Shown piece by piece: positions 16,468 through 43,890 of a stretch of DNA of 45,775 bases. Source of the stretch: Lachnospiraceae bacterium (GTDB lineage Bacteria > Bacillota > Clostridia > Lachnospirales > Lachnospiraceae); assembly GCA_017437065.1 (NCBI GenBank), contig JAFSBX010000093.1:1-45775 (forward strand), read 5' to 3'. The notes below the pieces were generated by a model. It searched no databases. It was not told the DNA's origin and worked only from the letters and a program-made list of their open reading frames with translations. Position 1 is the first letter of the stretch. Each line of letters begins with the position of its first letter. The position numbers and the translations under genes were made by a program.

Positions 16468-19074
16468 TTACCCCAAAGCATTATTAGCAATATTTTCTCT
16501 CTTCTCTTTTTTTAAATATCGGGCAGGGCTAAACAGCATAATCTCATGTGCCAGTACCGGCATTGCTGAAAGAGCAATCAGCATTCCCCATTCTTTTATG
16601 GACAACGGGCAGGTTCCAAACATTTGGATGAAATATGGGACTTCTGTTACCAGAAGTTGTAATGTAAATCCTATGATAAAGGCTGCTATCATCAGCTTGT
16701 TTTCAAAATGGTTCATGCGAAAAACTGACTTTTCCACATCACGCATTCCCAACGCATGAAACAGCTGTGAAATACCGAGTACGGTAAACGCATAGGTCTG
16801 ACTGCGGTTTAAAACTGTTGCGTCTTCCAGAAGGGTACGTATTCCGGTTAGTGTAACTTCATCACCTGCAGCGCGAAGCATGGAAATTGGAAGTTGCAAA
16901 AATGCTACGGTGCTGATTGTTGCAATGAGACATCCGTAAAATAACGTACAGCTCAGTCCTCCTCCGGCAAACAGGCTTTCCTTTTTGCCTCTTGGCGGTC
17001 TGTGCATAAAGTTTTCATTTTCGTTTATATCCACGCCAAGTGCCAATGCCGGAAGAGAATCCGTTATCAGATTAATCCATAAAATATGTGCCGGTTTTAA
17101 AGGCGAAGCCAGCCCTGCAAAAATAGCGGCAAGCATGGTAATAATTTCACCAAAATTTGAAGACAGTAAAAACATTACCGACTTTTTGATATTTTCATAA
17201 ATGCTTCTTCCCTGTGCAATCGCTTTTGTTATCGTTGCAAAATTATCATCCGTCAATATGATATCCGCTGCATTTTTTGCCACATCAGTTCCACCAAGTC
17301 CCATCGCAATTCCTACATCTGCCATTTTTAAGGACGGAGCATCATTTACTCCGTCACCGGTCATTGCCACAATTTTTTCTGCGGATTTAAATCCCTTTAC
17401 AATGCGCACTTTATGTTCCGGTGAAACATGAGCAAATACCCGTACCTTCTGCAGTCTTTTTGTAAACTCTGCATCCGACATCCCCTGCATTTCTTCTCCT
17501 GAAAGACACTCTTCTCTCCTGTTTGCAATTCCCAGTTCTCTTGCAATGGCAAAGGCTGTATCAATACGGTCACCTGTAATCATTACAGTTTTCACTCCGG
17601 CACGTCGAAATTTCTCCACGGCTTCTGCTGCTTCCGGTCGCACCGGATCTGCCATTCCGACCATACCCACAAACGTAAGATTTTCTTCACTCATTCTATC
17701 CGAATCCGTCCTCATACCGAGTACCAATACCCGAAGTGCTTTTCCGGTAAAATAGGATATTGCTTTATCTATACTCTGTCTATGCGAGACACTCATCGAA
17801 ACAGCTTTTCCGTTCAAAAGTATGTATTTACAATTTCGCAATACTTCCTCCGGCGAACCTTTTGTATATGAAATAAAACCGTTTATTCCTTTATGAAAGG
17901 TTGTCATTCTCTTTCGGTCTGAATCAAATGCAAGTTCTTCCTTTCTTGGATAGGTTCTTTCCAATGCTTTTCTGGTAATTCCATACTTTTCTGCCATATC
18001 TAAAAGTGCCAGTTCCGTCGGATCACCGATTCTTTCACCACCGGAAATTTCTCCATCATTACACAGCGTAAATCCCTGTAGAAAATTCATGTTTTTTTCC
18101 AAATCCAGTGTATCCGCCCCGACAACCGCACCATTCGTATAACACTCAGTTACTGTCATTTTATTTTGTGTCAGTGTCCCCGTTTTATCAGAACATACTA
18201 CACTGACACATCCGAGTGTTTCCACGCTGGGCAGTTTTTTGACTATAGTATTGACCTTTACCATACGGGAAACACTGAGTGCAAGTACCATGGTAACAAT
18301 TGCCGGAAGTCCCTCCGGTACAGCTGCCACTGCAAGAGAAATTGCAGTAATCAGCATTTCCATAACATCTCTTTTTTGTAACACGGCAATCAAAAATAAC
18401 AAAACACATAAAAATACGGAAACACCACTAAGTACCTTTCCAAGGTCTGCCAGTCGTTTCTGTAGTGGCGTCGCCTCTTCCTTTGTATTTTGCAGCATTC
18501 CCGCTATTTTTCCTATTTCCGTATCCATACCGATTGCAGTTACCACACCCTCACCGCGTCCATAAGTCACGTTTGTCGACATGTATGCTTTATTTTCTTT
18601 CCGTGTATCCTTACACACCGGCACCGATTCTCCGGTCAGTGCAGCTTCTTCTATTTTCAGATTCACGACTTCCGTCAGCCTCAAATCTGCCGGCACCTGT
18701 CTGCCTGCTTCCAGACAGACTACATCTCCCGGAATCAAATCCGCTGCCGGTATCTCTTTTACCTCTCCATTTCGCTTCACCAAAGCATGAGGACTGGTCA
18801 TCTGCTTCAATGCATCCAGTGCCTTTTTCGCCTTCCCCTCCTGAATCACACCTATCACAGAATTCACTACAATAACCGTCAAAATAATCACCGTATCACT
18901 AACTTCCTTCAACAACAACGACACCGCCGCCGCCACAAAAAGAATATAAATCAACGGATCATTCAACTGCTCCCCAAAGCAGGTAAGCATCGACTTTTGC
19001 TCTTCTTCCTTTAAAACATTTCTCCCCCGCAACTCCTCTTCCCGCCGTACCATTTCCTTATTCCCAAACTCCAT
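16468..19074 (-). CDS. P-type cation ATPase, calcium-transporting type
   Basis: This 868-residue P2-type ATPase pumps a cation, most likely Ca2+ (or Mn2+), across the membrane using ATP. It shows the actuator motif 'AALTGES', the M4 ion site 'PEGLPA', the phosphorylation site 'CSDKTGTLT', the hinge 'MTGDGVNDAPSL' and the M6 motif 'NLITDSLPALALG', a combination shared with SERCA/SPCA-like bacterial pumps such as YloB. The N-terminus is short, only about 35 residues before the first membrane helix pair, but the family motif region ('RGRNVLKEEEQ') is present. I chose ATG 19074 over GTG 19080 because AAAGGA is 8 bases from the ATG but only 2 from the GTG. It appears monocistronic, flanked by the 386-base gap upstream. 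Confidence 0.92.
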   Translation of the reverse strand: MEFGNKEMVRREEELRGRNVLKEEEQKSMLTCFGEQLNDPLIYILFVAAAVSLLLKEVSDTVIILTVIVVNSVIGVIQEGKAKKALDALKQMTSPHALVKRNGEVKEIPAADLIPGDVVCLEAGRQVPADLRLTEVVNLKIEEAALTGESVPVCKDTRKENKAYMSTNVTYGRGEGVVTAIGMDTEIGKIAGMLQNTKEEATPLQKRLADLGKVLSGVSVFLCVLLFLIAVLQKRDVMEMLITAISLAVAAVPEGLPAIVTMVLALSVSRMVKVNTIVKKLPSVETLGCVSVVCSDKTGTLTQNKMTVTECYTNGAVVGADTLDLEKNMNFLQGFTLCNDGEISGGERIGDPTELALLDMAEKYGITRKALERTYPRKEELAFDSDRKRMTTFHKGINGFISYTKGSPEEVLRNCKYILLNGKAVSMSVSHRQSIDKAISYFTGKALRVLVLGMRTDSDRMSEENLTFVGMVGMADPVRPEAAEAVEKFRRAGVKTVMITGDRIDTAFAIARELGIANRREECLSGEEMQGMSDAEFTKRLQKVRVFAHVSPEHKVRIVKGFKSAEKIVAMTGDGVNDAPSLKMADVGIAMGLGGTDVAKNAADIILTDDNFATITKAIAQGRSIYENIKKSVMFLLSSNFGEIITMLAAIFAGLASPLKPAHILWINLITDSLPALALGVDINENENFMHRPPRGKKESLFAGGGLSCTLFYGCLIATISTVAFLQLPISMLRAAGDEVTLTGIRTLLEDATVLNRSQTYAFTVLGISQLFHALGMRDVEKSVFRMNHFENKLMIAAFIIGFTLQLLVTEVPYFIQMFGTCPLSIKEWGMLIALSAMPVLAHEIMLFSPARYLKKEKRENIANNALG

Positions 19075-19110
19075 CCTCACATTCCTTTCTCACAAAATTT
19101 AATCATTTAC

Positions 19111-19121
19111 TAATCTGATTA
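19111..19121. repeat. 11-bp palindrome TAATCTGATTA upstream of the P-type ATPase
   Basis: This is an odd-length perfect palindrome 37 bases ahead of the ATPase start, in the region where its promoter should lie. It could be a regulator site, but it is short and AT-rich, so chance is possible. Confidence 0.3.
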
Positions 19122-19141
19122 AGGAGTAAAAGTTGCCTGCC

Positions 19142-19171
19142 AAAACTGTTACCGGCAAAACTGTTGCTGGC
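19142..19171. repeat. Two tandem 15-base units at the edge of the palindromic element
   Basis: AAAACTGTTACCGGC (19142-19156) is followed directly by AAAACTGTTGCTGGC (19157-19171), differing at two positions, with a decayed third copy to the left (ending TGCC). The second unit's GGC is the first three bases of the long inverted repeat. This may be the scar or target of insertion of the element. Confidence 0.6.
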
Positions 19172-19403
19172 ATGTTGCACAAAATTGTTTCGCCATTTGT
19201 GACTTGTGCAGGATATTAGATTTTCTTAATGTTCTGTAAATATCCAGCAATCCGACAGCACGACGCTGTCGGAAGGCTGAACTGAGCCATGGATGGCGAA
19301 TTTCAGCCGTTTGCGTCCGTAAAAGAAAACTCCCTCAGAACATTTAGAAAATCTTATATCCGAAACTTGGAACAAAGGGTGAAACAATTTTGTTCAACAT
19401 GCC
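19169..19403. mobile_element. 235-bp non-coding palindromic element with 68-bp inverted arms (MITE-like or structured RNA)
   Basis: This fills most of the only gene-free stretch over 300 bases (19081-19466). The left arm 19169-19236 and right arm 19336-19403 are inverted repeats that match at 56 of 68 positions with no gaps; the outer 23 bases (GGCATGTTG to TTGTTTC) differ at one. The 99-base centre has a perfect 8-bp hairpin (19252-19259 with 19265-19272) and a 7-bp stem (19275-19281 with 19302-19308) enclosing a 5-bp stem (19286-19290 with 19293-19297). No ORF of useful length lies in it and no transposase is nearby. The ends are consistent with a miniature inverted-repeat element; the internal folds suggest a structured transcript. 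A target duplication is not clear: only a 2-base CT flanks both ends. Confidence 0.7.
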
Positions 19404-19466
19404 CTCCACAACCTCCTCCTAAATCCAATTATGTAAAGATATGAGGACAGGTTCTAAAATAGTACG

Positions 19467-22457
19467 CTAATTATTCATTTTACTTCCGCATTTCGGACAA
19501 ATATTTCCACCTCTGTAGTTATATCCACAACGATAACAACATTTCACATCATGCTTCTCCTTGGCAAGATATTCAATACTTCTGGAATCCGGTCTTTCCT
19601 GCAAATAACTCACAAACTCATTCAGAATCTTTGCAAACTCCCCACTTTCTTCCTTCATAACCGGATGTGGAAGCTTCACTTTCTTTCCGGTAAAACGCCA
19701 CAAATAGACACCCTTTCCAAAAATACTTCTGCTTTCTTCCACTTTTTCAATATCCATAATATTTATAACACCGGCACTTAAAAGTGTACGGTAGAAAATA
19801 TGATCAGGCGTAAGCACAAAACCCTCTTTTCCACTTCCGGCTTTGGTGGTATCTCCAACAATAATCGGATATTCATATGGCTCTCGTGCTGCTGCATATC
19901 CATCTACTGCACGATGCATGGCTATATGTTGCTTCTCTTCATTTCCACTTATCTTTTCATCCCTATCTTCTTCCCAACGTGTCAATTCCTGTCTCTTTTC
20001 CCGTCGCTGTTCTTCTCTGGCATCATAGAAATAAAATCCGTTAAGATTTGTCAGTTTTTCTTCCATTTCATGCATCAGTTTCCGCATTAACTGAACACTT
20101 TCATCGGTTTTCAGTTTTACCAGTCTTCTGTCAATCATTTCCAGTGCATTCGTCTTTATTTCAGGTAAAAACATTCCCTCACTGATTGTTTTATAAGCCT
20201 CCATACCTTCCCTAAAGGAAAGACTTGCAATGGACGGACAGATTCTGTCGATTTCTTCCTCATCCATTTTGCGGATTTTATCATATATTTTTTCCAGAAA
20301 CGGCTCTTTATTCTCTTTCTTATAATCCTGTTCCTGTAACTGTTCATAAACTGTCCATAATTCTGCTCTGTCTTTTTTTCCGCCTCGTTTTACAAAGGCT
20401 GCAATTTCTTCTCTTTCAGCCATATCCTTGCGCTCTTCCAGTCGTTTTCGGTATGGCGTTAAATCTACTTCCTTATACTGGTCAATTTTATCCAGATAAA
20501 CAGCCAGCTGCTTTCTGTCCACATGTAATGGAATATTTTGAATTAAATGTTCTACCTCCCTCTCGGCACGGTCTGATCGGATTCTTTTCAGTTTTTTTAT
20601 CGTTTCTTCTTTTAACTCTTCAGGACAATCCCTCTTTTCCACCTCATCAATCATACGGCCAATTTCTTCGTAAGTTTTATTTCTTCCAAGCTCTACTTTC
20701 TGCTCCAACGCTTTTTCTTCTGCACGATACAGCATATTGTCCAGCTTTTTAATATACCGTTCTCGATCTTCTTCCGGCAGGATATCTTCTTCTTTAATCT
20801 GCTTTTTTAAGTCGGAAAGCTGACGAAGGGAAAGGTTGTCCAATGCGCCCATACGTGCCTCGTATTTTGCAGTCAGCTTTTCTTCCAACACGTTCTTTAC
20901 TGTTTCCATGTATTCTGTCGGCGTTACATCTGTTTCCGAAAATGCTCCAAGACCTGACTTTACTGCCATCGTTGCACCGGCACCTTCGTTTTCACTCATG
21001 CCCTTTAACATATTTTTCAGTTCTTCCGTAGTTTTAGCTGCAAGTTTCACTGCCAGTTTATCTTTTGTCATTGTCGCCAAATCCGAAGTCTCTGATTTGG
21101 AAACATTTTGATCTGTTTTCTCCTTCTCTATACTACTATTTATCTGTTCTTTCTCACGTACCTGTTCTTCCTCATGTATCTGCTCTTCCTCACGTAATTC
21201 CTTAGTTCTGCTTTCTGCTTCCTCTGTTTCAGTCACGTTGTGTTCTTTTTCTTTCCCTGCATTTCCGGCAAATACACTTTTTACAAACCCTTTTTTCCTT
21301 ATCTTTTCCTGTTTTACAGGTGAATTATTTTCTGCCTGTGTATTTTCTATCCGGGAACTTTCTTCCTGCTCACTTTCCTTCTCTATGCTTTCTTTTTGTC
21401 CCGTCTGCTCCTGTTGTACCTCTGTCTTTTCTTTTCTCCGCTCATACTCATATTCATTAAATTTAGAATTTACCGTCTTTTGGGCTCTTTTTCCCAAAAT
21501 CCAGAGATAGTCCTCGTATGCAACCCTGTCTTCATCAAATTTCAAACCATAAACATCGCCCTCCTGTATCAGTTTTCCAGGGCGTGGCGTATAAAACAAA
21601 TTGCAAGTATTACATGTATAAACACGTGCCATAAAAACACGTGCTTCTTCCGTTTCTATCAGCAACTCTTTGTCCATAGGATACACCGCCATATACAGCG
21701 TTTCTCTACATTTTGGACACAGATATCCGGTTAAATAAAAATTATTACCGATTCTCGATTTTGCCGCATCACTTTCCGACTGTGAACATTTTTCAAAAGT
21801 ACAGGTTTCCTTCTTCCAAAGCATACTATGCCACAGACCGAGTTCATACTCCTCTTCATCCTCCCAGCTGTATGAAGCGTCCTTTTCCGAAAATCCGGCT
21901 GTCTTATTTTCCAAATCTTCTTCATTTTCTGAGGTGTCCATCCCCAGTTGCTCTTCAGCTGACGTATCTTGTTCATCCTCCGGTACTTTTCCTTCACTTC
22001 TCAGAAGCTCCATTGCCTCCTGCAATACATCTTCATATGTAATCTGCACTCCGTTTTTTAAAAAAAGAAACCGTTCATTTCCATATTCAGTTTCTACCCT
22101 AATAGGACGAAAGACATTCTGAAACAACACATTTAGTGCCACATAGTCTTTTTCCACAGTTAAACCACTTATAGCTCCCCATTTTCCAAATGCATATAAA
22201 ACTATGTTCAACATATTATTAATAAGTGCATCATTTGGAACCATATCTATTTTCTTATTTTCCAAAGAAATATCCACTATATTTGTAAGTACCGTTTGAT
22301 CATTAAAATCAAAAATCAGAGAGCGTATTTCTCCCACAAGAATCAGCTTATTATTTTTAATGGCAAATACATCTTTCCACGTAACCGGTGCTTTTACGGT
22401 TTTGATTAATTTTTCAAAGACAATCTTTAATTCCGGGTTTGCTTTCAATAATAACAC
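19467..22457 (-). CDS. Large zinc-ribbon/coiled-coil protein of unknown function
   Basis: This 996-residue protein is not one I can name. The first 160 residues look globular, followed by an acidic linker. A four-cysteine zinc ribbon is formed by 'CPKC' near 246 and 'CNTC' near 284. A very long charged, mostly helical region rich in E, K, R and Q follows, about 330-850. A domain at about 890-960 has a sheet pattern ('GKEGFVLTPDHIFYRTLL', then 'VYLWRFTGKKVKLP') recalling bacterial PH-like domains. A final zinc ribbon (CYRCGY then CPKCGSKMNN) ends the chain. There are no membrane segments. GTG 22457 is preferred to GTG 22466 because GAGGTGG overlaps the latter. The immunity kinase gene ends 32 bases upstream, so it may be the last gene of that operon. 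Confidence 0.75.
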   Translation of the reverse strand: MLLLKANPELKIVFEKLIKTVKAPVTWKDVFAIKNNKLILVGEIRSLIFDFNDQTVLTNIVDISLENKKIDMVPNDALINNMLNIVLYAFGKWGAISGLTVEKDYVALNVLFQNVFRPIRVETEYGNERFLFLKNGVQITYEDVLQEAMELLRSEGKVPEDEQDTSAEEQLGMDTSENEEDLENKTAGFSEKDASYSWEDEEEYELGLWHSMLWKKETCTFEKCSQSESDAAKSRIGNNFYLTGYLCPKCRETLYMAVYPMDKELLIETEEARVFMARVYTCNTCNLFYTPRPGKLIQEGDVYGLKFDEDRVAYEDYLWILGKRAQKTVNSKFNEYEYERRKEKTEVQQEQTGQKESIEKESEQEESSRIENTQAENNSPVKQEKIRKKGFVKSVFAGNAGKEKEHNVTETEEAESRTKELREEEQIHEEEQVREKEQINSSIEKEKTDQNVSKSETSDLATMTKDKLAVKLAAKTTEELKNMLKGMSENEGAGATMAVKSGLGAFSETDVTPTEYMETVKNVLEEKLTAKYEARMGALDNLSLRQLSDLKKQIKEEDILPEEDRERYIKKLDNMLYRAEEKALEQKVELGRNKTYEEIGRMIDEVEKRDCPEELKEETIKKLKRIRSDRAEREVEHLIQNIPLHVDRKQLAVYLDKIDQYKEVDLTPYRKRLEERKDMAEREEIAAFVKRGGKKDRAELWTVYEQLQEQDYKKENKEPFLEKIYDKIRKMDEEEIDRICPSIASLSFREGMEAYKTISEGMFLPEIKTNALEMIDRRLVKLKTDESVQLMRKLMHEMEEKLTNLNGFYFYDAREEQRREKRQELTRWEEDRDEKISGNEEKQHIAMHRAVDGYAAAREPYEYPIIVGDTTKAGSGKEGFVLTPDHIFYRTLLSAGVINIMDIEKVEESRSIFGKGVYLWRFTGKKVKLPHPVMKEESGEFAKILNEFVSYLQERPDSRSIEYLAKEKHDVKCCYRCGYNYRGGNICPKCGSKMNN

Positions 22458-22489
22458 GATAACCACCTCAAATCAGGTTTTCTTTTATC

Positions 22490-40198: not shown

Positions 40199-40244
40199 CT
40201 CGGATACTCACTACATTCGAGCACCTTTTGACACCCGAATCCTA

Positions 40245-41830: not shown

Positions 41831-41868
41831 CATGACGAACACAACCTAAATCAATCCCTTTTGACACC

Positions 41869-43890
41869 TTAATCAAAATCCGCTAGCTCCGTCTCCGTTT
41901 CCATCATACGTTCTAACAAACTTTCCTGCTGTCTTTCTTCTGCATCAAGCTGTGACTGAAGCTCCATCAGTTTCTCATAATCCGTTGCAAGTGCCGGGTC
42001 CATAAGCTGCATTTTTAATTCTGCTGCCTTTTGTTCGCTTTCCGCAAGCTGAGTTTCATACTTTTCTAACTGTCTGGTAAGACGGGACTTTATTTTTCCC
42101 GGATTGTAGTAAGTCTTTTTATCAAATACATCTTGTAATGTAGGCTCCTGTCCATTTTTTTGTCTACATCCGGTGCCTGTTACTCCTCTGACATTTACCA
42201 TGTTTTCTGTACCACTACTCTTCCCTGATCCCGTTTTTCCCGTACCACTTTTATTATCTGCGAATCTGTTTTCCTGTTTGGCTTTCTCCTGCAAATATTC
42301 CTCATATGTACCCTGATATTGCTTTACCTGTTCTTTACCAAACTCCAATATCCCGGTAGCTACCTGATTGATAAAATAACGGTCATGAGACACAAAAAGT
42401 ACCGTTCCCGGAAAGCCTTTCAGCATTTGCTCCAATGCTTCCTTGCCAATCATATCCATGTGGTTAGTAGGCTCGTCCAAAATCAATAGATTCGGCTTTG
42501 TCTGAAACATTTTGCACAATGCAAGCCGCACCTTTTCTCCTCCGGAAAGCTGCCCCATTTTCTTTAAAACTTCTTCCTGTGAAAACATAAAACTACCCAG
42601 TGAGCTTCTGACTTCTTCTCTTAACAGCTTCGGATATTCCTCCCAGAAATTATCCAGTACTGTCTGTTCCGGGTCTGCATCATTTACTACGGCTCTCTGC
42701 TGGTCAAAATATCCCCATTCCACATTTTGTCCGAAAGTAAATGTACCGCCAAGAGGTTCCAGCATACCAACCAGCGTTTTTAACAACGTAGATTTTCCTT
42801 TTCCATTTTCTCCTAACACAGCAACTCTGTCACCTTTTCGCAACTGAAAAGAAACTTTACTCAATTCTTCCTCATAACCAATGCTCAGATTCTTCGCCGA
42901 AATTACTTCCGTATAACTCTCTATTCTTGGAGTAAACATGGCATGAAAGGTTTTGGTATCAAATCGTCTTGGTTTTTCAATTTTCACCATATGCTCAATT
43001 GCCATTCGTTTTGACCGGGTTGCCGCAACCTTGGTAGGTGTATTTTTCCACTTTTCTATCCATTCCGTCAGCCTCTTAATTTCCTTCTGCTGTTCTTCGT
43101 AATCCTTTTCCTGCTTTATCAAATCTTCTTCCTTACGTTTCATAAAAGCAGAATAATTTCCCGGATAACGTTTTATCCTATGATACTCGATTTCATAGGT
43201 TACATCAATAATCCGGTCAAGAAACATACGGTCATGGGACACGATGATAACCGCCTTATCATAACTTTTCAAATAGCCCTCCAGCCATTCAATGGTTGGC
43301 AAATCCAAATGGTTTGTAGGCTCATCTAACAGCATAATATCCGGTCTGCTCAACAACAATTTGATAAATGCAATCTTCGTCTGCTGTCCACCTGAAAATG
43401 TTCCAATAGGACGTTTTAAATCTTCCAGCAAAAACCCAAACTGTTGGAAGATAATTTCCATGTCCTGTCGCCACGTGTATCCGCGAAGTGCTTCCATCTG
43501 TTTTTGCAAATTGTCATATTCGTAAAAAAGTTCCTGATTTTCACCCGCATGAAGCTGTTCTTCTATTTCTTTCATTCTGGCTTCACAGGCAAATACCGGG
43601 GCAAATGTTTTCTTGATTTCCTCTTCCACTGTAATGTCCCCGTCTGTGAAACTAATCTGACGCAGGAAACCAATCTGCTGTTTTCCTGCCATCGTTATAC
43701 CACATTCCTCATCACTGTCTAAATTGCTCATTTCAATATCTCCGGCAATTAACTTCAATAATGTGGTTTTCCCACAACCGTTTCGTCCAACGATTGCTAT
43801 TTTCTCTTTATCGTGAACCTCAAAGTTCACATCCTCTAATATTGTGTCCGCTGCATACTGCACCAGCGCGTGTCTTATTTGATATCTCAT
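41869..43890 (-). CDS. ABC-F family ATPase
   Basis: This 673-residue soluble protein has two ABC cassettes in tandem without membrane segments: Walker A 'GRNGCGKTT' and 'GENGKGKST', signatures 'FSGGQQTK' and 'LSGGEKVR', Walker B 'MLLDEPTNHLDLPT' and 'LILDEPTNHMDMIG'. The linker between the cassettes ('NTPTKVAATRSKRMAIE') is the region that reaches into the ribosome in ABC-F factors. A charged C-terminal coiled coil follows. ABC-F proteins act as translation factors or protect ribosomes from antibiotics; which applies here is not clear. The start is ATG 43890 with GAGGAGGAAGAG. The gene follows the double GNAT gene by 20 bases. Confidence 0.93.
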   Translation of the reverse strand: MRYQIRHALVQYAADTILEDVNFEVHDKEKIAIVGRNGCGKTTLLKLIAGDIEMSNLDSDEECGITMAGKQQIGFLRQISFTDGDITVEEEIKKTFAPVFACEARMKEIEEQLHAGENQELFYEYDNLQKQMEALRGYTWRQDMEIIFQQFGFLLEDLKRPIGTFSGGQQTKIAFIKLLLSRPDIMLLDEPTNHLDLPTIEWLEGYLKSYDKAVIIVSHDRMFLDRIIDVTYEIEYHRIKRYPGNYSAFMKRKEEDLIKQEKDYEEQQKEIKRLTEWIEKWKNTPTKVAATRSKRMAIEHMVKIEKPRRFDTKTFHAMFTPRIESYTEVISAKNLSIGYEEELSKVSFQLRKGDRVAVLGENGKGKSTLLKTLVGMLEPLGGTFTFGQNVEWGYFDQQRAVVNDADPEQTVLDNFWEEYPKLLREEVRSSLGSFMFSQEEVLKKMGQLSGGEKVRLALCKMFQTKPNLLILDEPTNHMDMIGKEALEQMLKGFPGTVLFVSHDRYFINQVATGILEFGKEQVKQYQGTYEEYLQEKAKQENRFADNKSGTGKTGSGKSSGTENMVNVRGVTGTGCRQKNGQEPTLQDVFDKKTYYNPGKIKSRLTRQLEKYETQLAESEQKAAELKMQLMDPALATDYEKLMELQSQLDAEERQQESLLERMMETETELADFD

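Follow-up and report, generated by a model that had tools for sequence, protein, structure and literature searches.

The window analysed here is a stretch of 45,775 nucleotides from a Lachnospiraceae bacterium, in which a palindrome occupies part of a 386-base gap between two open reading frames of the same strand. The question raised by this locus is whether such a palindrome is mobile DNA or a structured RNA, which the original prediction had set out as alternatives (a non-autonomous, MITE-like element, or an RNA whose base pairs have been kept). We propose that the palindrome is probably one member of a family of non-autonomous, MITE-like transposable elements, about 310 bp long, with a conserved and foldable centre that Rfam lists as the RNA family TwoAYGGAY.

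The palindrome and its TwoAYGGAY core

In a self-search of the genome, the left arm of the palindrome (19169..19236, plus strand) aligns with the reverse complement of the right arm (19336..19403, plus strand) with 82% identity over 68 bases, in agreement with the 56 of 68 matching positions counted originally. The further hairpins noticed in the centre are two, placed from the sequence and the model alignment: apical hairpin 1 at 19251..19273 (+), with the loop ACGAC (19260-19264) and therefore without GGA, and apical hairpin 2 at 19275..19308 (+), with the loop ATGGAT (19289-19294). Folded as RNA, the stretch 19150-19420 reaches -114.9 kcal/mol, compared to -59.8 +/- 5.2 kcal/mol for 200 shuffles, none of which is as good (z = -10.7). 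The flanking ORFs are 16468-19080 (-), the product of which we take from its motifs to be a P-type ATPase, and 19467-22466 (-), which encodes a 999-amino-acid protein with only one relative confirmed in a scan of the genome collection. Both arms of the host copies can be read by eye as short ORFs with the start ATG TTG (in the window 19172-19219, plus strand, and 19400-19344, minus strand), the peptides being alike on the two strands; these were dropped as genes, because the start is seemingly not kept by other lineages.

The centre of the palindrome (19204..19368, plus strand) matches the Rfam family RF01731, TwoAYGGAY, over the whole model (positions 1-168) with a cmscan score of 133.2 bits, where the gathering score is 43, and shares with that family the long stem enclosing two apical hairpins. 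A match in Rfam had been expected to make the element a known one, and this holds for the core; the family is, however, not called mobile in the accessible parts of the published accounts that name it, and in the literature on MITEs in Lachnospiraceae and on RNA families that are transposons the element is absent among the matches listed. The paper of 2010 in which TwoAYGGAY was discovered is said to be by Weinberg and colleagues. Rfam gives the family as an RNA of unknown function with the type label Cis-reg, while the available portion of the discovery paper (PMC2864571) treats it as a probable RNA and not as a switch, its table carrying an 'n' under cis-regulation. Going by the available excerpts, Rfam 15 and a CaCoFold paper refine its structure, and a preprint of 2025 examines its loop energies. 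A cis-regulatory RNA leader, as the Rfam label has it, could also draw on the strong compensatory change in the stems described below, but is very improbable here: apart from the mark in the discovery paper, of the 60 copies for which crude ORF calls give a neighbour on each side, only 23 have a downstream gene of the same sense. The neighbours of the 68 copies surveyed (E being the element) are arranged as -E- in 22, +E- in 15, +E+ in 12 and -E+ in 11, with no called neighbour on one side in 8. The window copy also departs from the published family in its first loop, which is ACGAC rather than AYGGAY. Loops were found by pattern in a collection of 170 cores (194 loops; none in 31 of the cores), with GG in 153 of the 194 and ACGAY without GGA in the other 41.

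Copies, unit ends and target duplications

The search for further copies, proposed with the original prediction, was fruitful. The host genome, in an assembly with 5.58% contamination, holds 15 RF01731 matches over the cut-off and one weak match, and blastn of a 271-base stretch against it yields 31 matches, many of them limited to one arm; among these, the 11 matches of at least 189 bases other than the window copy itself have 79-90% identity to it. The spread is patchy. In a set of 61 genomes that includes the host, RF01731 occurs in 8, at 2 to 20 matches per genome; it is also found in 65 of 397 genomes of the host's bacterial family (63 over the cut-off), and in 36 of 391 genomes of a class-level set (27 over the cut-off), some outside the host's family. 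The copy numbers in the 397-genome set are to be read as 'at least', since up to six candidates were scored per genome, and some weak copies may have escaped. Transport by phages or plasmids found no support, as blastn at E 1e-5 gave no match among 50,697 phage and 72,556 plasmid records. Among copies listed by hand, all six pairs lying less than 1 kb apart are divergent (minus then plus), i.e. 56141/56497 on contig C134 and 52752/53111 on C124 of the host (G000), 139778/140187 on C47 and 53805/54268 on C33 of G010, 70082/70338 on C152 of G389, and 326939/327954 on C1 of G409. At an orthologous site (L064 on host contig C134, L078 on contig C9 of G002), the host has two inverted copies and about 350 extra bases where G002 has one copy.

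The Rfam model covers just the middle of a unit of about 310 bp, which is new here. The host copies have sequence in common for about 70 nt past the model on each side, and the comparison was extended to 170 copies from 40 genomes, a subset of the known copies. In lineages with recognisable ends, the units share the terminus GATTCGGGTGTCAAAAGGT or a similar one, inside direct repeats, and terminal inverted repeats are seen in units of the host, G201, G390, G147 and G187. With at most one mismatch, the pattern TTMGGGTGTCAAAAGGT has 58 matches in G201, 32 in G390, 16 in the host, 13 in G147, 8 in G187 and 7 in G182, and 1-2 matches in four further genomes; its reversed form has none in the first six and a single match in each of three other genomes. 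It is thus present in 10 of the 64 carriers scanned (the 65 less G025), so that the remaining 54 have other or decayed ends.

Target duplications accompany these termini. In a free-offset scan, exact 9-mer direct repeats were found at 4.8% against 1.9% in the control. A positional scan placed the signal 70-74 nt beyond the core, on either side of it: direct repeats identical at 8 or more of 9 bases occur there in 10 of 165 copies, whereas swapped flanks give 0.4% (936 pairs) and the other bins 0-2.4%. The peak is not wholly blind, as its position was first noticed in the free-offset scan. A test on other units followed, anchored at the termini of 28 defined units: the 7 bases outside match at 6 or more positions in 17 units, against 62 of 756 swapped pairs, and perfectly in 13 units, against 20 of 756, in a frame picked after inspection of the flanks, other frames having been tried without comparable excess. 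Immediately outside the 7-mer, flank identity falls to the control level on both sides, which indicates a duplication of 7 bp; this replaced our first reading of 8-9 bp. The duplication is present in 10 of the 15 units with an RF01731 core, in 6 of 12 short units (69-199 bp), and in a 290-bp unit that RF01731 does not match. The targets show a preference near CTWATAG, between runs of T and A, and on account of this bias the swapped-flank control is not lower. Inverted 7-mers flank 2 of 28 units perfectly, against 23 of 756 controls, too few to build on. A scan for flank repeats of 4-6 bases gave nothing convincing in G006 or in G024, G001, G010 and G266, and was insensitive, as it missed the signal of the host too.

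The 28 units have lengths of 306-312 bp (15 units), 290 bp (one), 199 bp (one), 155 bp (two), 102 bp (five) and 69-78 bp (four), and those of 69-199 bp carry the same termini as the units of about 310 bp. Inverted termini GATTCGGGTGTCAAAAGGT, 7-bp target duplications and shorter units with the same ends are shown for relatives with intact termini. Some short units recur at one length, 102 bp in both G201 and G390 and 155 bp in G201, which suggests that nothing beyond the termini may be required for movement; these units could also have arisen by deletion after insertion, and intermediate lengths are found as well when termini are matched more loosely. The units of about 310 bp are present in many dispersed copies and contain no transposase gene. 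Among 29 loci around ends, no gene-bearing unit with these termini was seen; paired ends there are mostly 87-312 bases apart, and wider candidate pairs appear only through ends with 5 of 19 mismatches. An IS256-type partner was considered and is not supported by this survey, nor by a search for the transposase PF00872, to which neither the host nor G187 yielded a match. In the window itself, the element family is further represented by two solitary end fragments, at 40224-40240 (-) ATTCGGGTGTCAAAAGG and at 41857-41873 (-) ATTAAGGTGTCAAAAGG, the latter with adjoining arm sequence; they are remnants or truncated copies.

The window copy can be placed tentatively, via comparison of the flanks of copies, as a 309-bp unit at 19117..19425 (no strand assigned). 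The empty site and the target duplications that had been suggested as checks were both found, the duplications at the termini of relatives. The orthologous gene pair of a relative (L123; 62% and 85% protein identity) has about 70 bases and no element between its genes, compared to 386 bases in the window, in an alignment too diverged for exact junctions. The left end of the window copy has 9 of 22 mismatches to the terminus, and 25 of 450 window stretches are as good or better; the right end has 12 of 22, and the flanks hold no clear 7-bp repeat. The termini of the window copy are not recognisable beyond chance, and because its junctions cannot be read either, its mobile status rests on its relatives. 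In the mechanism that we propose, a transposase supplied in trans would cut at the termini and insert the unit with a 7-bp stagger, and the window copy would have arrived by such an insertion, its ends having decayed since.

Bacterial MITEs are miniature inverted-repeat transposable elements, and our element resembles them in being short, non-coding and present in many copies, with inverted termini, a target duplication and shorter derivatives. It differs from them in that it is palindromic over most of its length, its centre is present in several families of the class, and the 29 end loci revealed no autonomous partner. REP/BIME elements, which are moved by RAYT (Y1) transposases, are likewise dispersed intergenic palindromes; the 7-bp target duplication sets the present element apart from these, and to our knowledge Y1 transposition leaves no such duplication. 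The terminal repeats and target duplications on units in several lineages also distinguish the element from TwoAYGGAY as described.

Pairing of the stems

Across 69 of the 170 cores, 36 of the 37 predicted pairs show changes on both sides with pairing kept. The original prediction had taken such compensatory change as the property that would separate an RNA from a mobile element, and in this it failed, as covariation and mobility are seen at once. The MITE half of that prediction is supported by the many copies, the patchy spread, the one empty site, the 7-bp duplications of relatives and the short units, and the structured half by the pairs.

If the helix formed in RNA, from whichever strand, G-U wobble would be expected to be tolerated on that strand. 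The 37 pairs in the 69 cores comprise 2218 Watson-Crick, 59 G-U, 52 A-C and 198 other combinations, and hairpin 1 taken separately has 587 Watson-Crick, 5 G-U and 3 A-C in 621 cells. Under the same treatment, 16 purine riboswitches gave 14 G-U and 1 A-C in 224 cells, and 8 tRNAs gave 18 G-U and 0 A-C, a zero that is partly built in because ARAGORN seems to draw standard pairs only. The balance of G-U to A-C in the element differs from both (p = 0.004 for riboswitches and 4e-5 for tRNAs, values that serve as guides, since the rows are related and both controls are small). Around the two loops the G-U and A-C counts are 31/20 and 24/24, and in the inner stem 50/37. A count over whole arms (127 G-U, 151 A-C) mixed in conserved mismatches repeated across related copies and was for that reason redone on the outer arms and the aligned pairs. 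The outer arms of 161 of the 170 copies (4 scored too low and the others were short of flank) hold 158 G-U, 113 A-C and 227 transversions (p = 0.007 for G-U against A-C), a slight excess of G-U that points the other way and to which the outer arms of G201 contribute with 14 against 1. Overall, the counts suggest that the pairing of the stems is kept mainly at the DNA level, which could involve selection for a DNA hairpin or templated correction between the arms.

Correction of this kind might even be the whole explanation, the palindrome being perfected solely by template switching between the arms during replication and the fold having no function. The near equality of A-C and G-U mismatches in the aligned core is consistent with it, as is the behaviour of the outer arms in G024 and G010, which vary between copies while the two arms of a single copy match at 79-98% in 22 of the 24 copies. 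We nevertheless consider it unlikely, because template switching does not produce 7-bp target duplications, and because the loop residues C56, G59, G62, G89, A90 and G106 are invariant over the 69 cores while the stems turn over, for which selection or recent descent is needed. The same invariance counts against the MITE-like element that we favour, as a passive MITE leaves it unexplained; the conserved loops may be bound by some protein.

CsrA, motility and the meaning of the family

The accessible part of one report (PMC4333381) proposes that TwoAYGGAY binds CsrA, the AYGGAY loops being CsrA sites and the many copies providing dosage. That the copies act in trans as a small RNA titrating CsrA is possible, if somewhat doubtful, and such a role can coexist with mobility. 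The host has CsrA (E 2.7e-24), as do all 8 carriers in the 61-genome set (37 of 61 overall), and in the larger set CsrA is over the cut-off in 62 of 65 carriers, compared to 146 of the 332 non-carriers (p about 3e-16, in a comparison that ignores descent), the exceptions being G193, G344 and G382. Flagellin, however, co-occurs equally (64 of 65 carriers, 149 of 332 non-carriers), and only 9 of the 397 genomes have CsrA without flagellin or the reverse, so that CsrA is not separable from motility. The ACGAY loops without GGA, that of the first hairpin in the window included, and the rarity of G-U pairs for an RNA helix also argue against such a sponge. GGA in the apical loops is shared with the CsrA-sequestering small RNAs of the CsrB/RsmZ type by most copies in which loops were found, though not by those with ACGAY loops; the element is, in contrast, dispersed multi-copy DNA of mixed orientation.

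A further, rather speculative reading, to which we give limited credence, is that the RNA family RF01731 is in truth a mobile DNA hairpin. The element would then be a transposable palindrome with a conserved GGA-loop core that acts in the form of folded DNA, or else serves as a decoy for CsrA on mobile DNA thriving in Clostridia that are motile and have CsrA. If this were true, a selfish element would be tied to a global regulator. The co-occurrence of the element with CsrA and flagella makes the sponge idea directly testable. Functional RNAs are usually regarded as proven once covariation is strong. In the present family, strong covariation stands alongside target duplications and few wobble pairs, so that the balance of wobble pairs may help to distinguish palindromic DNA from RNA in screens of this kind. 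For a curated RNA family without a known function, the classification would shift from regulatory RNA to mobile DNA, and its many genome annotations would be read differently.
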